A stretch of DNA of 35,167 bases. Source: a virus. The translations under genes were made by a program, and so were the position numbers. This document shows, one piece after another, positions 516 through 24,321 of this stretch (positions within the stretch are counted from its first letter, which is position 1; the number at the start of each line of letters is the position of its first letter). The stretch covers positions 1-35,167 of the IMG/VR virus record IMGVR_UViG_3300021357_000007; one strand, given 5' to 3'. The notes beneath the pieces were generated by a model. The model saw only the letters and a program-made list of their open reading frames with translations, ran no database searches and had not been told where the DNA came from.

Positions 516-938
516 ATGAAAACCTGTTCTAGATGTAAAGAAACTAAACCTTTTAAAGGCTTCTCTAAAGACAAGTATCATTCTTCTGGTTATAAAAGTG
601 CATGTAAAGTTTGTGCTCAAAAAGACTTCAGTGAATGGCGATCTACTAATCTTGAGTCTGCAAGGAAACAAGATAGAGTGAGTCATTACAAAAGAACTTA
701 TAACTTATCTCCTGAAGAAGCTGAAAAAAGAGCTACCAGTCGTTTAGGAAAGTGCCTAATCTGTAAAGATGAAGCTCCTCTTGTTGTGGACCATTCTCAT
801 GTAACTAATAAAGTTCGAGGATATGTTTGCAGTAGCTGTAATAGTGTCTTGGGTTATGCTAGAGATAGTCAATACATTCTAGAACAAGCTATTTTATATT
901 TAAGGAAGTCTAATGAAGACGACTTATATCCCCGGTAG
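516..938 (+). CDS. Endonuclease VII-like HNH (homing-type) nuclease
   Basis: A 140-residue protein resembling the phage recombination endonuclease VII family. An N-terminal zinc-binding half has CSRC near residues 4-7 and CKVC near 30-33. The catalytic half reads CLICKDEAPLVVDHSHVTNK then VRGYVCSSCN, giving the paired cysteines around a VDHSH core that this treble-clef nuclease fold uses for zinc and metal binding. T4 endonuclease VII resolves branched DNA, but small copies like this one in phages are usually free-standing mobile nucleases. It is the only nuclease in the virion arm, it ends with TAG, and its tail overlaps the next gene by 26 bases, consistent with an intruding element. Confidence 0.8.
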   Translation: MKTCSRCKETKPFKGFSKDKYHSSGYKSACKVCAQKDFSEWRSTNLESARKQDRVSHYKRTYNLSPEEAEKRATSRLGKCLICKDEAPLVVDHSHVTNKVRGYVCSSCNSVLGYARDSQYILEQAILYLRKSNEDDLYPR

Positions 939-14473: not shown

Positions 14474-15025
14474 TTATACTTCACAGGAGCCGCCGCACTG
14501 CTCAGCCACTTTAACACACCAATTAATAAACTCATCTTCTGTCATATCATTTTTCATAGTATTTATCCTTTTATGTACCCATTGAATGTTTCCTTTAACA
14601 TATCCAATGGACGAGTCGGTACGATCAAGAGAGGCTGTGCTTTTACTCCAACCCGTGTCCTTTTCTACAAGAGTAAGAACTTGACCGGAATAGGGACACA
14701 ATCCTCGCTGCGCCTTCCAAACATCTACTAAATCCTGTAATGAGACTCCAACCTCTTTTTTTCTAAATTTAAGTTTGGTAAGATACTGAACAGAGACACC
14801 ATCAATACCCTCCCAGAACGAATACTTCTCCCTTTCAATCGCATTACAACTTTGACAGCCTTTTGATCTACCATTCACTAGTTGACCCGCACGTCTGATA
14901 TAGTCACGATTACAGCCTATACAAGTGACATCCCAGTAATGTTCGTTGTTATAGTGGGAGTACCCTATAACTTTCCATTTACCAAAGAGAGTACCTGTTG
15001 GTGCAGGAATGTACTTTGATTTCAT
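14474..15025 (-). CDS. HNH homing-type endonuclease next to nrdJ
   Basis: A 183-residue protein with a zinc-binding half (CIGC near residues 35-38, CQSC near 57-60) and a C-terminal HNH-type segment containing GLCPYSG, ASLDRTDSSIGYVKGN and IQWVHKRINTMKND. This arrangement (CPxSG, then SLDRxDSxxGYxxGN, then QWVHxxIN-MKN) is common in phage mobile nucleases. Its ATG overlaps the stop of the ribonucleotide reductase gene. Free-standing nucleases often protect their own genome site and spread to related phages; here the target is probably near the nrdJ 3' end, which is an inference. Confidence 0.8.
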   Translation of the reverse strand: MKSKYIPAPTGTLFGKWKVIGYSHYNNEHYWDVTCIGCNRDYIRRAGQLVNGRSKGCQSCNAIEREKYSFWEGIDGVSVQYLTKLKFRKKEVGVSLQDLVDVWKAQRGLCPYSGQVLTLVEKDTGWSKSTASLDRTDSSIGYVKGNIQWVHKRINTMKNDMTEDEFINWCVKVAEQCGGSCEV

Positions 15026-18970: not shown

Positions 18971-19134
18971 TGCATTTCCTTATTAGATGCAGAGGAGCCA
19001 ATTACATTAAAAGCTCCCGAACGAACTAGGAAGTTTAAACCTAGTATTACAACCAACTTTGTTTCTTCAGGGGAAAGCTCACCAGAGAACTTTACACCCC
19101 CTTCTGGGGTTTCAATTACTGTGTCTATGAGCAT
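18967..19134 (-). CDS. 55-residue small protein
   Basis: ATG 19134 lies behind AAGGAAA at the end of the HNH gene, with the 55-residue product starting MLIDTVIETPEGGVKFSGEL and containing SPEETKLVVILGLNFLVRSG. A longer frame from 19170 exists but would be read mainly inside the HNH gene. Function unknown; conserved-looking small replication-arm gene. Confidence 0.55.
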   Translation of the reverse strand: MLIDTVIETPEGGVKFSGELSPEETKLVVILGLNFLVRSGAFNVIGSSASNKEMH

Positions 19135-19514
19135 TTTTTCCTTTCTTCTTTTGTTTTGATGGCATGGCATCCCTTACATAAGACTTGCAAATTGTCCTTC
19201 TCACAAAAGAGTAGGTTAACAAATTCATCCCAAGAACGGTTTTTCCCAATAGGGACAAGATGGTCAACTTGGACATCTTTGGCGGTGAATTCATCACCAC
19301 AAGAAGTGCATTGATAATGCTGTGCAATCCTACCAGTCTTTGGGTTAACTTTTTTCTCTGTCTTTGCTTCATTTAAACATTCCCATTTGGGCTGCCATCG
19401 GCGGCTTCCACTTCTAAGTACAGAGGTTACAAAGGAATTGAACCTTCCTTCAGTCCAGTTTCCGCTGTTATATTGTCGTTGTTTCTTTTTAGGCAGGAGG
19501 CCTCCATATATCAT
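19125..19514 (-). CDS. HNH nuclease (free-standing)
   Basis: A protein of about 129 residues with a classic HNH zinc finger: YQCTSCGDEF, then DVQVDHLVPI, then NLLFCEKDNLQVLCKGCHAI, so the CxxC pairs and the VDH core are all present. The N-terminal part includes EGRFNSFVTSVLRSGSRRW, a helix common to phage HNH proteins found in replication modules. I place the start at ATG 19514; ATG 19547 is possible. It overlaps the exonuclease 3' end. Nicking or restart of replication, or simply mobility, are the usual explanations. Confidence 0.8.
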   Translation of the reverse strand: MIYGGLLPKKKQRQYNSGNWTEGRFNSFVTSVLRSGSRRWQPKWECLNEAKTEKKVNPKTGRIAQHYQCTSCGDEFTAKDVQVDHLVPIGKNRSWDEFVNLLFCEKDNLQVLCKGCHAIKTKEERKKCS

Positions 19515-20208
19515 CTTCTTTTTGGTGAATCCACAAACAAGCAGCATTCATATGCATTGTCTCTGTGCTTGACCCAGCTTCTTTATACATTAAGAGGACG
19601 TGTTCATACATCTCCCCTTCGGAATGACAGGTGTAAAGAACATCAACCTTTGGCTGTAAGAACTTAGGAATTTCTGTCCTAGCTTTTCCATCATAACCAA
19701 ATATATTGTCAGCCCTATCACCAAGAATAAGTTGAACATAAAACCAACGTAGCCCGTCAATGGCTGGGACAGTTGAGTGTTCGTCCTTAACAAAGTTGTA
19801 ATGGTTGCCCGGAATCATGAGGAGGTCTTTGTCCACACTCACAATAACCGTGCTTCCCTGCTCCTTATCTTGATGGATACCTAATGCATCATCAGCTTCA
19901 ATGTTGTCACATATCTGTGCTCCATGGACAGTAACTAAATATTCACGAACTTGTTGTAGCCACTCAGGGCGGGGAACATCTTTACGGTTGGCCTTGTACT
20001 CAGGGTTAATTTTCAACCTGAAGTTGTCAGAGCCTCCTATAAAGACTTTGTAGCCCTCACACTGAGTTGCGTACTTGATGCGCTGCATTGTATCCTCACA
20101 CCTCCCTAAAGCCGCCTCAAGGGGCTCTAGGAAGGGCTTGGCTTTGGTTGGTTGACAGGACGCTGCGGCGCGGTATCCTACCACGTCACCGTCTACTAAA
20201 GCTATCAA
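19489..20208 (-). CDS. 5'-3' exonuclease (T7 gp6-like, FEN family)
   Basis: A 239-residue flap-endonuclease-type enzyme that removes RNA primers and degrades DNA from 5' ends. Metal-binding acids are present as D6 and D8 (ALVDGDVVG), EADDALGI, SVDKDLLMIPG and LGDRADNIFG, with the helical arch lysine/arginine segment YKANRKD. It begins with TTG 20208 behind AAAGGA. It is shorter than T7 gp6 (300 residues) but keeps all motifs. Lies in the replication module between the SSB-like and phosphatase genes. Confidence 0.88.
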   Translation of the reverse strand: MIALVDGDVVGYRAAASCQPTKAKPFLEPLEAALGRCEDTMQRIKYATQCEGYKVFIGGSDNFRLKINPEYKANRKDVPRPEWLQQVREYLVTVHGAQICDNIEADDALGIHQDKEQGSTVIVSVDKDLLMIPGNHYNFVKDEHSTVPAIDGLRWFYVQLILGDRADNIFGYDGKARTEIPKFLQPKVDVLYTCHSEGEMYEHVLLMYKEAGSSTETMHMNAACLWIHQKEDDIWRPPA

Positions 20209-20944: not shown

Positions 20945-21388
20945 TTAAATATGTGTCCAATTGACACGTCTGATAATACGTCCTATATGTGCCTGTTCAA
21001 CACCATATAGTTTTCCTAATTTTTCTTGAGACAGTGAACTTGCTCTAATACTAATAACATCTTCTTCTGTTAACTTCGAATAGGGATGTTTACTACCGAC
21101 AATACGTTGTCTATCTTTTTTGTCTTTTTGATTATCTTGGTTTGTTCCCAATCTTAAATGAGCAGGATTAACACAAGATGGGTTATCACAGGAATGAAGA
21201 ACTAATAGACCTTCAGGAATAGGTTCCTTATAAAAGGAATACGAAAGTCTGTGAACAAGTTGGCCTTGTTTTCCTTTATAACACATTCTTCCATAACCAT
21301 CCCGGTCTTTCATGCCCAACCAGTTCCAACAGTCTTTGGAGTCTTTTACTATTCTATTCTCAATTCTTTCACTTAATATTTTCTTCAT
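20945..21388 (-). CDS. HNH_3-type homing endonuclease with HTH tail
   Basis: A 147-residue nuclease. The N-terminal half has the HNH_3 pattern: CWNWLGMKDRDGYGRMCY, then VHRLSYSFYKEPIPEG, then LHSCDNPSCVNPAHLRLGTN. The C-terminal part (LTEEDVISIRASSLSQEKL, then AHIGRIIRRVNW) is a helix-turn-helix-like DNA-binding segment often found at the end of such proteins. Its ATG lies only six bases downstream of a strong promoter -10 box, so it may be read from a leaderless transcript or inserted between that promoter and the SSB gene. Confidence 0.85.
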   Translation of the reverse strand: MKKILSERIENRIVKDSKDCWNWLGMKDRDGYGRMCYKGKQGQLVHRLSYSFYKEPIPEGLLVLHSCDNPSCVNPAHLRLGTNQDNQKDKKDRQRIVGSKHPYSKLTEEDVISIRASSLSQEKLGKLYGVEQAHIGRIIRRVNWTHI

Positions 21389-21394
21389 ACACTA

Positions 21395-21423
21395 ATTGTA
21401 ACAGACTTCTTGCCACTTGTCAA
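21395..21423 (-). promoter_or_regulatory. Sigma-70-type promoter (extended -10)
   Basis: On the minus strand: TTGACA at 21423-21418, a 17-base spacer, then TACAAT at 21400-21395 preceded by TG one base away (an extended -10, TGTTACAAT). Five of six bases match each consensus or better. The -35 overlaps the TGA stop of the polymerase C-terminal gene. It would drive the HNH, SSB and downstream replication and nucleotide genes. Confidence 0.75.
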
Positions 21424-22166
21424 GAACTTCTTGCTAATTTTTCCATGTTTTTCATGTTTGGGCCAAACTTGGCTTCACATGTCATGGGAACAACCCACTC
21501 ATAACGATAAATCTTCTTAATATTTAGTTGTAAGTCGTCAAACACTTGGTAGGCCAAGTCAGTGAGCTGTTGTAAATATTCAGAAGGGGTGTCGATCAGT
21601 ATGCTGTCATGAACTGTCGAAATGAATTTACAGGGAATTCCTAGAGCTTTCACTCGTCGGAAGAGGGAGATGCGTACAATGGTCATAATGTCAGCCCCCG
21701 TGCCCTGAACTGGATAATTGCTGAGAATAGTCCATGGAATCTTTAGTTCCCCATGGTTGCCATTACCATGGTTATTGCGACGCATAGGAATGCTCCAAGA
21801 GCGTCCTAGGGGGCCTACAATTGGTTTTCCACTAACTACAAGGTCTGCCCATTCTTTATGTTTCTTATCTAATCCATGATATTTCTTGTAAAACTTCTCA
21901 TTAACATTGTCCCAGTATTTAGGGTTGTCAGACACATGCATGAAGTCGTTGTCATTTGCAAATGCCCAACCTGAGCCCCTGAACAAAGTCCTGAAAAGAT
22001 ATACTTTCGCTATAAGGCGGCTAGGTAGTTCAAAAGCAACTTGATTCAAACTATGTGTATCTAAGCCTTCTATGATCTCCTTTATAGCCTGAGAGTCTTT
22101 ACTAAGTTCGGCTGCTACCCTCCACTCGGGCTAAAGCTGTGCCGCATCAATAGATAAGAGGGGCAC
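21420..22166 (-). CDS. Family A DNA polymerase, C-terminal part, broken by an in-frame amber
   Basis: Carries the polymerase palm and fingers: motif A (SIDAAQL then EWRVAAEL), the fingers O-helix (SRLIAKVYLFRTLFRGSG then WAFANDNDF), and motif C (STVHDSILID). It continues the N-terminal half encoded at 23028-24158; together they make about 625 residues, a normal phage size. A GTG at 22166 stands six bases behind a perfect AAGGAGG, giving MPLLSIDAAQL. However TAG at 22133-22131, with the extra codon CCC, separates Q-L from E-W within motif A. The next possible in-frame start is TTG 22049, after motif A, which would not give a full polymerase. The true product thus depends on suppression, repair or a sequencing error. 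Confidence 0.7.
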
Positions 22167-22665
22167 AGCCGACCTCCTTGGAATGCACAGCAAGCACTCC
22201 TTTGGCAAAAGCAATTAATTGCTCTTTAGTAGCTCTATTTTTCATTTGGTTGGCTAATATGGATATTACTTGAATGTTTTCTGAAATATACCCTTTACTA
22301 GAATCAATTCGATCTATGGATGCCCATGCAGCGGGGTCACCGGTATTAAGTGGAATACCTAAATAGGGACATAGTTCTGGAATAATAATATCTTCAGGCG
22401 TAATTGTGAATTCTCTAGAACCATATTCATATTTTACTCGATCTCTTGCCTTTTTCCATAAGTATTTTGCAGGGTCAGTGCTCCGCCTCTTTTCCATATG
22501 CCTACGTAGAATTTGCTTAGCCTTCTCCGGGTCTGCTGCTGTTGTAGCACGAGATTTGGCATTAACACATTCCTTACAGGCATTATGTCGGCCATCTGGT
22601 CGGGCCGTGAACTTACCAAATAGATCATCTGCTTTCTCTATATTACACCATGCACACACCCTCAT
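22147..22665 (-). CDS. HNH homing-type endonuclease interrupting the DNA polymerase locus
   Basis: A 172-residue nuclease. N-terminal zinc-binding pairs CAWC (4-7) and CKEC (about 30-33) precede a helical linker and the HNH-type part: ELCPYLGIPLNTGD, ASIDRIDSSKGYISEN and ILANQMKNRATKEQLIAFAK. The set CPYxG, SIDRIDSxxGY, AN-MKN-AT is typical of phage mobile nucleases. It overlaps the polymerase C-terminal start by 20 bases and its ATG overlaps the upstream stop, so it is precisely fitted into the split polymerase. Confidence 0.8.
   Translation of the reverse strand: MRVCAWCNIEKADDLFGKFTARPDGRHNACKECVNAKSRATTAADPEKAKQILRRHMEKRRSTDPAKYLWKKARDRVKYEYGSREFTITPEDIIIPELCPYLGIPLNTGDPAAWASIDRIDSSKGYISENIQVISILANQMKNRATKEQLIAFAKGVLAVHSKEVGCAPLIY
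22173..22179 (-). promoter_or_regulatory. Strong ribosome-binding site for the polymerase C-terminal part
   Basis: AAGGAGG on the minus strand, six bases before GTG 22166. It lies inside the 3' end of the HNH gene and decides the start used for the polymerase C-terminal part. Confidence 0.6.
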
Positions 22666-22856
22666 GGTTTAAATAGCGCCGCTGTCTGAGCAGCGCCTGC
22701 TCCAAAGTTCATGTGCTGATAGACCTGACGTGCCTGCGTAGGAAAAGAATCAATGAAGCGAGTAGCTACATCCTTAGCTCCCTGTTCCTGAATCAAACTG
22801 GCGAAGTCAGACAAGATTTCATTAAATACAACTTCATCAAGCTCTTTGTTTGTCAT
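22662..22856 (-). CDS. 64-residue protein between the polymerase halves
   Basis: A small protein starting MTNKELDEVVFNEILSDFAS and ending with TQARQVYQHMNFGAGAAQTA and a Phe-Lys-Pro end. No motif recognised. It overlaps the Rmf-like gene by 20 bases and the HNH gene by 4 bases, so the three are likely translated together. Confidence 0.6.
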   Translation of the reverse strand: MTNKELDEVVFNEILSDFASLIQEQGAKDVATRFIDSFPTQARQVYQHMNFGAGAAQTAALFKP

Positions 22857-23031
22857 CGAGTTCCTTTAACAATATTTTAGAATCTGCATCACTCCACCCA
22901 TGGAGCCATGAATGGAAGGCCCATTCCAATCCATTCTCATAATTTTCCCAATAGGGGTTGGCTTTGGTTCTCTGTCCTGCTTCCCTAGCTTCATATCCCT
23001 GTTTATAAGGAAGTTCTTTTATTTTGCTCAC
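22837..23031 (-). CDS. Ribosome modulation factor (Rmf)-like small protein
   Basis: A 64-residue protein with KQGYEAREAGQRTKANPY and LEWAFHSWLHGWSDAD. The pattern G..AR.AG....NPY followed by W..GW resembles bacterial Rmf, which dimerises ribosomes in slow growth. Short Rmf-like proteins also occur in phages with unknown roles. It begins with GTG overlapping the TGA that ends the polymerase N-terminal half. Confidence 0.65.
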   Translation of the reverse strand: MSKIKELPYKQGYEAREAGQRTKANPYWENYENGLEWAFHSWLHGWSDADSKILLKELDDKQRA

Positions 23032-24158
23032 TCGTATTCCGATACAAATACGTCTTGGATTTCTGACGCGAAGTTCTGTTGGTTTGGACGAGAACTAGAC
23101 AGTCGACCGGTTTGGGCAAGTGTTTGATTGAGCTGACCATGGAGTTTGCCTTTTGGCCAATGCATTTCTTCATTTAATTTCGGGAGTCCTCTGTAATAAG
23201 TACCATTGAGTTTCTCAGCCTTAGCAAGTGTAAGAAGAGTTTCGACAACTTTCTTGTGCTTACCCTTAAGTTTCCTTAAACAACCTTCGTTTGTCTCATA
23301 GAAGCCTTCCTTTTGTAGTTCACTACCCTTGACAGGCTCAAACAAACGAGGGAGCGTGTGCTCAATTTCCTGATTCTTTAGTTTTGGTTGTCCCTTTTTA
23401 ATGCCCGATTTATAGAACCCATCGTGAACTTTAATAGTTTCCACAATTTTCCCGCCATAGAGAAAGGCAGAGAGATGATCGCCAGAATTGAAGTTAATGG
23501 GTATATTAGGGTAGAAGTTTGAGAGTGTCTGCTTGAGCTTTTCTGTTTCTGCATCTAACTCCTTCGATCTTTTGTCACAAAGCTCTGTGTCGTAGGTAAT
23601 TCCGTTTTGTTCCATCTCCTGTAAAACCAGCATGTCCTGACTCATAAGCTTACACAGCTTAATCTGAGCAGGGCCCATTAGTTTAAGTTGTGCATAATAA
23701 CATTGTAGGGTAGCACTAGCATCATAAGCAGCATACTCACGTAGGATAGGCCAAGGAACATCTTTGGTATCAATACCTTTATCCCAGTATTCTGTTTTAA
23801 CAACATCGAGCTTAACAGGAATGCCGTACTTGATACAAGTGTCGTTGAGGCTAGGAAACTTATGTTGCTGATGGCTAATAATGAACTCAGCAATTTGAAC
23901 ATCCCAAACTTTTACATTGGAAAAATCTACCCCATATTTACGGAGCCACGCAACATCAAATTTAAAGTTGAACCCTATGAGCGGCTCGGCCCTGTTAACC
24001 ATGCTTTGTACAGGTTCAGGTTTGGTCCATAGATAGGCTTCACTCCAATGCTCCTCTGCTGCGCTCCAACACACTAACTCATTACGACGGTCATACGCAT
24101 TCCCTTTCGAGAATATAGTTGTCTCAGTGTCTATGGCTATAGGACTAGGGTAGGTCAT
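23028..24158 (-). CDS. Family A DNA polymerase, N-terminal part (3'-5' exonuclease plus thumb)
   Basis: A 376-residue protein with an intact DnaQ-type proofreading domain: IAIDTETT (D10, E12), LIGFNFKFDVAWL (D68) and REYAAYDASAT (Y142, D146). The thumb region follows and ends with LHGQLNQTLAQTGRLSSSRP, then NQQNFASEIQDVFVSEYE and TGA. In intact polymerases the TGRLSS.xPN.QN block is followed within about 25 residues by motif A, which here lies on a separate frame 0.9 kb downstream. The gene is thus split exactly at the thumb-palm border. The start ATG overlaps the end of the 58-residue gene upstream by 14 bases. Confidence 0.85.
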   Translation of the reverse strand: MTYPSPIAIDTETTIFSKGNAYDRRNELVCWSAAEEHWSEAYLWTKPEPVQSMVNRAEPLIGFNFKFDVAWLRKYGVDFSNVKVWDVQIAEFIISHQQHKFPSLNDTCIKYGIPVKLDVVKTEYWDKGIDTKDVPWPILREYAAYDASATLQCYYAQLKLMGPAQIKLCKLMSQDMLVLQEMEQNGITYDTELCDKRSKELDAETEKLKQTLSNFYPNIPINFNSGDHLSAFLYGGKIVETIKVHDGFYKSGIKKGQPKLKNQEIEHTLPRLFEPVKGSELQKEGFYETNEGCLRKLKGKHKKVVETLLTLAKAEKLNGTYYRGLPKLNEEMHWPKGKLHGQLNQTLAQTGRLSSSRPNQQNFASEIQDVFVSEYE

Positions 24159-24321
24159 TAATAAACTTCTTTATGGATGCTTCCAAGAGTTCTTGATTAA
24201 CTTCTGTATCATGCCATTTATTAGTGACAAGGAAATAGTCCTCCCTATCTTTCAACCAACTTGCTAAATACCTAGCAAACTCGTCGTCATCTTCAGGGGT
24301 TAGTTCAGGTGTCTTTGTCAT
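24145..24321 (-). CDS. 58-residue acidic small protein
   Basis: A frame from ATG 24321 to TAG 24145, overlapping the polymerase start by 14 bases and the upstream gene by 17. It reads MTKTPELTPEDDDEFARYLA then SWLKDREDYFLVTNKWHD. Acidic at the start, helical afterwards. Function unknown. Confidence 0.55.
   Translation of the reverse strand: MTKTPELTPEDDDEFARYLASWLKDREDYFLVTNKWHDTEVNQELLEASIKKFINDLP

Follow-up and report, generated by a model that had tools for sequence, protein, structure and literature searches.

A stop-containing insert in motif A of a split phage DNA polymerase gene and a probable ribosomal hop across it

How could a phage make its replicative DNA polymerase from a gene that is both divided in two and interrupted by a stop codon within motif A? 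This question is raised by the IMG/VR virus record IMGVR_UViG_3300021357_000007, of which positions 1 to 35,167 (35,167 nucleotides, hereafter the window) were analysed. The locus consists of five reading frames between 21420 and 24158, all on the minus strand and with overlapping stops and starts. The exonuclease/thumb polypeptide (23028-24158, 376 aa, ending in FVSEYE*) matches PF01612 and positions 43-133 of PF00476, and the palm/fingers frame (21420-22166) takes up PF00476 at positions 207-379; both match Pol I in the PDB, and the palm profile pairs DASQLEWR with the motif A sequence DFSQIELR. The two halves belong to a single family A polymerase. Between them lie a 64-aa Rmf-like ORF (22837-23031; PF04957, E=7e-4, under the Pfam cut-off), for which no homologue was found between the polymerase halves of relatives, a further 64-aa ORF of unknown function (22662-22856) and a 172-aa HNH endonuclease (22147-22665; PHROG 3322 endonuclease and PHROG 1035 endonuclease VII). 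The second of these has no Pfam or PHROG match but does have homologues between the halves in many relatives, and its family could be a polymerase subunit or linker. The HNH frame shares 20 bp with the palm start, and its 3' end supplies the Shine-Dalgarno sequence of the palm gene.

A sequence-only reading had described the locus as a family A polymerase divided at the thumb-palm border, with passenger genes in the gap, and this holds. The exonuclease ORF, the Rmf-like, unknown and HNH ORFs and their overlaps were likewise borne out, but the palm frame at 21420-22166 is not open throughout. It reads VPLLSIDAAQL*PEWRV, its codon 12 being TAG (22131-22133), and the proposed total of about 625 aa passes over this stop; neither the stop nor the motif A insert of the palm half had been mentioned. 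The longest ATG/GTG/TTG ORF of the palm region (21420-22049) is without motif A.

The split is not peculiar to the window: the same break, just before motif A, is present in every relative in which both halves are readable (40-67% identical). In these relatives, from IMG/VR, the exonuclease ORF ends with ...DIFISRYND* and the palm ORF begins with M-LIQCDASQLEWR. Mostly a single ORF of ~62 aa lies between the halves, sometimes with others added and mostly without an HNH gene, and the two polymerase ORFs of L075 and Alcaligenes phage QDWS535 merely abut or overlap. MW202796 (L064) is an extreme case, in which 3.6 kb separate the exonuclease gene from the palm gene and a cytosine methyltransferase is among the genes in this interval. 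A fused polymerase with one continuous frame, which would have spoken against a genuine split, was found in none of the fetched relatives. The split is old and ancestral to the clade, and the three intervening genes are passengers and not its cause. A homing nuclease of the T4 sort, as had been suggested, does seem to be involved at this locus; however, the HNH gene did not cause the split, because relatives without it are split identically. A split DNA polymerase has been published for the OM43 phages MEP401 and MEP402, relatives within the Zobellviridae, whose authors suspected an intron (PMC10580990). These phages share with the window the exonuclease and palm in two ORFs, the small unknown ORF between them and the break point; the window differs in its palm insert, as no insert, HNH gene or recoding is described there (PMC10580990). 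A group I intron between the halves was rejected, since the Rfam search that had been proposed gave no match in the window at the gathering threshold and, at E<=1, nothing of relevance within 21300-24300; nor would an intron core fit among the ORFs.

Longer interruptions of the polymerase genes also occur in relatives, in the exonuclease half at SSxPN|LQN (L008, L010, L014, L156) and in the palm at RLIAK|IF (L015, L016, L112, L164) or near the PVQGTGAD motif (L018, L019, L082, L121, L168). Some of them contain an HNH ORF, and no Rfam intron match at the gathering threshold was found in the seven loci checked. The polymerase of Vibrio phage ICP2 (records L209 and L210) is in two pieces as well but is broken at SSxPNLQN, the site of the L008 and L010 interruptions, and in one ICP2 record the CDS is annotated as joined across an ORF that lies within it.

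Alignment with uninterrupted relatives places a 6-bp insert, TAGCCC (22128-22133, minus strand), in motif A of the window (DAAQL^EWR), where it forms the in-frame amber stop. The remainder of the palm/fingers frame from EWR onwards (21420-22127, 235 codons) is intact and 57-69% identical to relatives. Pattern scans, together with a profile scan across IMG/VR and GTDB genomes, showed at least 16 distinct phages, the window included, to carry an insert of 1, 2, 6, 7, 8 or 10 bp at this place. All inserts fall within a 9-bp stretch of motif A, inside CAR-CTN-GAR-TGG; every one adds a stop, a frameshift or both, with the coding sequence open on either side, and the frame is changed in 10 of the 16 phages. 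The smallest are CTT|T|GAG (+1; L073, L077) and CTT|TA|GAG (+2; L018, L066, L169). The +6 class comprises CTT|TAGCCC|GAR, with the same six bases in the window, L011, L257 and L285, as well as CTT|TAGCTT|GAA (L078) and CAG|TAGCGG|CTA (L230). Inserts of +7 are CTT|TAGACCC|GAA (L254) and GAA|ATACGAC|TGG (L143), that of +8 is CAA|ATATGCAG|CTT (L223), and those of +10 are GAA|TAGCTACGTA or TAGCTACGAT|TGG (L010, L178). An exact scan of IMG/VR for CTTTAGCCCGARTGGMG gave, beyond the known loci, six hits, none of them in a polymerase; an exact scan for CTTTGAGTGG after DASQ found L073 and L077 only, and isolate phages held no DNA match to the L066 cassette. The +2 phage L018 also has a tRNA gene (L018:5793-5863) ~0.1 kb downstream of its palm gene.

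The palm gene nevertheless has the marks of a gene in use. Ahead of the insert the DxxxL protein sequence is kept while third codon positions vary synonymously, and behind it the palm tails of phages that both carry inserts differ with dN/dS of 0.06-0.13, within the range of uninterrupted pairs, although dN/dS cannot date the arrival of the insert. Palm sequences with inserts have no second downstream lesion save the intron-like breaks, and no second palm copy was found in the window or in eight records with inserts. As both sides are conserved and no spare palm copy occurs in those records, both sides must be translated and joined, and since the insert adds a stop or frameshift, a single chain requires recoding. 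The gene might instead be dead or dying, with the inserts as scars of nuclease cutting and faulty repair, and their position at one spot of highly conserved DNA, a plausible nuclease target, together with their stops and frameshifts is what such scars would look like. This explanation is unlikely, as the tails are under purifying selection without further lesions, palm copies to replace the gene are missing from those records, and the inserts recur in diverged phages together with a strong Shine-Dalgarno sequence and a hairpin.

In the window, the Shine-Dalgarno sequence AAGGAGG (22173-22179) precedes the palm start, and a 9-bp stem (arms GGCUGUGCC/GGCACAGCU) is predicted by folding between a 5' arm GGCTGTGCC (22162-22170), which contains the GTG start (22164-22166), and a 3' arm GGCACAGCT (22135-22143), which runs into the proposed take-off codon CTT (22134-22136; Leu, the end of DAAQL in the alignment with uninterrupted relatives), all on the minus strand. 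A strong Shine-Dalgarno sequence stands before the palm start in 16/16 phages with an insert against 5/57 uninterrupted ones (p=4e-12), and the hairpin between it and the insert has a mean of -17.0 kcal/mol in the former and -9.4 kcal/mol in the latter (p=2e-8), the 57 being distinct relatives of which some are close kin of one another. In the first set the figures were 11/11 against 3/38 for the Shine-Dalgarno sequence, and -15.2 against -9.6 kcal/mol (p=9e-6) for the hairpin. Five insert loci fetched after the hairpin had been proposed all fold at no more than -16.7 kcal/mol (p=4e-4 when set against newly added uninterrupted relatives), and with independent pairs on the tree p is about 0.004 for the Shine-Dalgarno sequence and 0.016 for the hairpin. 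The 5' arm lies between the Shine-Dalgarno sequence and the start codon, or over the start, and the 3' arm reaches to the take-off codon or stops just short of it. The arm sequences themselves vary, for example a 16-bp stem in L223 and GCGCCG/CGGCGC in L169, and inserts of the CCC type can pair with the Shine-Dalgarno region, e.g. GGGU with ACCC in L254. The hairpin signal resides in the group and is individually weak in the window and most other phages: under codon-aware randomisation 3 of 11 hairpins are significant, and that of the window is not (p=0.13). Folding of the window strand gives it z=-1.7 to -2.1.

These features suggest programmed forward ribosomal slippage over the insert as the source of the palm subunit in the window and in related phages, a reading to which we assign a probability of roughly two in three. 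Restoring the normal protein requires a forward shift for all inserts. Ribosomes would initiate at GTG 22166 behind the strong Shine-Dalgarno sequence and read VPLLSIDAAQ-Leu(CTT), whereupon TAG would enter the A site; some would then move ahead by 6 nt and take up reading again at GAG, so that motif A regains its DAAQL-EWR sequence. Related phages would use the same slippage over 1, 2, 7, 8 or 10 nt, with take-off from CTT, CAR or GAA after ten or so codons, when a stop (or AUA) occupies the A site. The hairpin would refold behind the ribosome and pull the mRNA backwards, which amounts to pushing the ribosome forward, and may also draw the Shine-Dalgarno sequence close to the take-off codon, as in release factor 2. 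We infer the hop itself and its exact landing codon from the sequence. Codons around the insert are matched only in L078 (CTT-TAG-CTT-GAA) and L223 (CAA-ATATGCAG-CTT, Gln to Gln by CAA/CAG); the window landing codon CCC differs from the take-off CTT, and the landing codon is mismatched or partly matched also in L011, L230, L254, L257, L285, L010, L178, L143 and the +2 class. The CTT-TGA of L073 and L077 resembles the release factor 2 shift site.

Other routes to a polymerase were weighed against such slippage. The TAG could be decoded by a suppressor or near-cognate tRNA, and a 6-bp insert does keep the frame in the window, L011, L257, L285, L078 and L230, but readthrough is improbable here: it is impossible for 10 of the 16 phages, in which the insert changes the frame, and the TAGACCC of L254 is TAGCCC plus one base and out of frame. 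It would also put two extra residues, X-Pro, inside motif A. TAG terminates 5 of 46 examined ORFs in the window, no tRNA was found there, and the frame does not continue through the stop in all relatives, as it would in a readthrough gene. An alternative genetic code was rejected, as TAG ends window ORFs and the next genes start across it. Excision of the insert from the transcript, or an enzyme in three pieces of which the last is initiated on its own behind the insert, might seem natural for an enzyme that is already in two pieces, and L223 has an in-frame ATG right after the hairpin. The window, on the other hand, has no in-frame ATG/GTG/TTG until 22049, past 26 residues of conserved region, and the catalytic Asp of a three-piece enzyme would sit on a peptide of 10-11 aa; no Rfam intron family matches, and known introns are all longer than 1-10 nt, so that this route is quite unlikely. 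An assembly or sequencing error is hardly credible. All cases but L285 are metagenome contigs, and the L285 contig comes from a GTDB genome that was itself assembled from a metagenome, but the same insert recurs in different samples and collections (window, L011, L257, L285), and the multi-base inserts are exact and correlated with the Shine-Dalgarno sequence and the hairpin.

Programmed slippage remains the preferred reading, and the distribution of the inserts bears on how it may have spread. On a tree of palm tails the inserts are scattered, with at least 10 changes on well-supported branches. L178 (+10) and L128 (no insert) are ~97% identical on either side of a ~60-120 bp block that contains the Shine-Dalgarno sequence, the start and the insert. 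Similarly, L078 (+6) and L082 (no insert) become nearly identical at the first base past the insert and are unrelated upstream, and the similarity of the +2 phages L018 and L066 begins exactly at AAAGGAGG. Insert, Shine-Dalgarno sequence and hairpin thus travel between phages as a small block, apparently at least sometimes together with an HNH gene ending in it. An HNH gene abuts the block in the window, L011 and L223 (one family) and in L143 (another family), and L230 retains just the last ~28 codons of one. A complete HNH gene lies against the palm start in 4/16 phages with an insert and in 0/38 uninterrupted ones examined (hand calculation, p about 0.006). In L011 a second, broken palm start (ATGTTAATTCAATGTGAC; L011:5417-5434) lies upstream of the HNH gene; it is probably the old start left by the arrival of the cassette, and such a remnant would be expected from the insertion into the gene of a cassette that brought a palm start with it. 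High conservation makes the motif A DNA a good target for homing, and the insert most likely renders this DNA resistant to the HNH nuclease, as argued for T4 gene 60 (PMC5009743). Protection from the nuclease remains a model because most of the 16 phages have no HNH gene adjoining the insert. Further HNH-type ORFs in the window lie at 516-938 (+), 14474-15025 (-), 19125-19547 (-) and 20945-21388 (-), the last two with Pfam HNH matches; that at 20945-21388 follows closely on the palm gene, a position at which L016, L019 and L066 carry related ORFs.

To our knowledge, the evidence for programmed bypassing in bacteria and phages comes almost entirely from T4 gene 60. One gene position with many natural variants of differing length and matched insert-free relatives makes the mechanics of hopping (hairpin, Shine-Dalgarno sequence, stop and landing codon) directly testable, and with them the notion that recoding evolves to shield genes from homing nucleases. 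An apparently broken or truncated polymerase gene in a phage metagenome may, moreover, be a functional one. No earlier report of recoding in this polymerase gene was found in the literature, subscription papers being mostly outside the search. The split was already known, and a homing nuclease with a bypass cassette is known once, in T4; recoding in the polymerase gene appears to be new.

Several known systems resemble parts of the present one. Bacterial release factor 2 uses a +1 frameshift at CUU U with an upstream Shine-Dalgarno sequence (PMC5009743), and it shares with the polymerase inserts a CUU followed by a stop early in the ORF and a strong Shine-Dalgarno sequence. L073 and L077 need exactly +1 at CTT TGA, and are the only ones to do so, whereas the window needs +6 and most shifts are not +1; the Shine-Dalgarno sequence is ~37 nt upstream, a distance that only the hairpin would close. 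In synthetic stop-hops (Weiss et al. 1987), matched codons flank a stop and nine nucleotides are read as one amino acid (PMC5009743). The CTT-TAG-CTT of L078 has the same form but is natural, and a 2016 review knew of no natural in-frame stop-hop (PMC5009743). The bypassing elements of Magnusiomyces capitatus mitochondria, many short inserts in genes (PMC5009743), are likewise corrected by translation; unlike the window, they are mitochondrial, belong to a yeast and have an unused codon in the A site.

There is also a likeness to T4 gene 60, in which a 50-nt gap at codon 46 is bypassed between matched GGA codons with the help of a nascent-peptide signal (PMC5009743; PMC2988022). As in T4 gene 60/mobA, an essential replication gene comes in two pieces with a homing nuclease gene at the break, and protection against that nuclease is proposed, the HNH gene adjoining the cassette in the window, L011, L143 and L223. 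The insert lies early in the second piece, UAG directly follows the take-off codon (CTT TAG in the window, 22131-22136), and a stem-loop lies upstream, with the 9-bp stem of the window standing beside a T4 5' stem-loop that is said to pull the mRNA (PMC5009743). In contrast, the cassette family of the window has gaps of 1-10 nt at codons 9-11, in varied lengths, in many phages and in a family A polymerase. The window is without matched take-off and landing codons, and a nascent-peptide signal, which would sit 25-30 residues back, is impossible where only 11 codons precede the stop. The window would work like the T4 system but is not classed as a member of it, because these two features, matched codons and nascent peptide, are absent. 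On the wider proposal we are evenly divided: a natural series of hops over 1, 2, 6, 7, 8 and 10 nt, including the stop-hop CTT-TAG-CTT, in a replicative polymerase, with a hairpin-tethered Shine-Dalgarno sequence as the driver and a mobile nuclease-resistance cassette carried along with HNH genes, may constitute a second, independent and far more widespread system like that of T4 gene 60.
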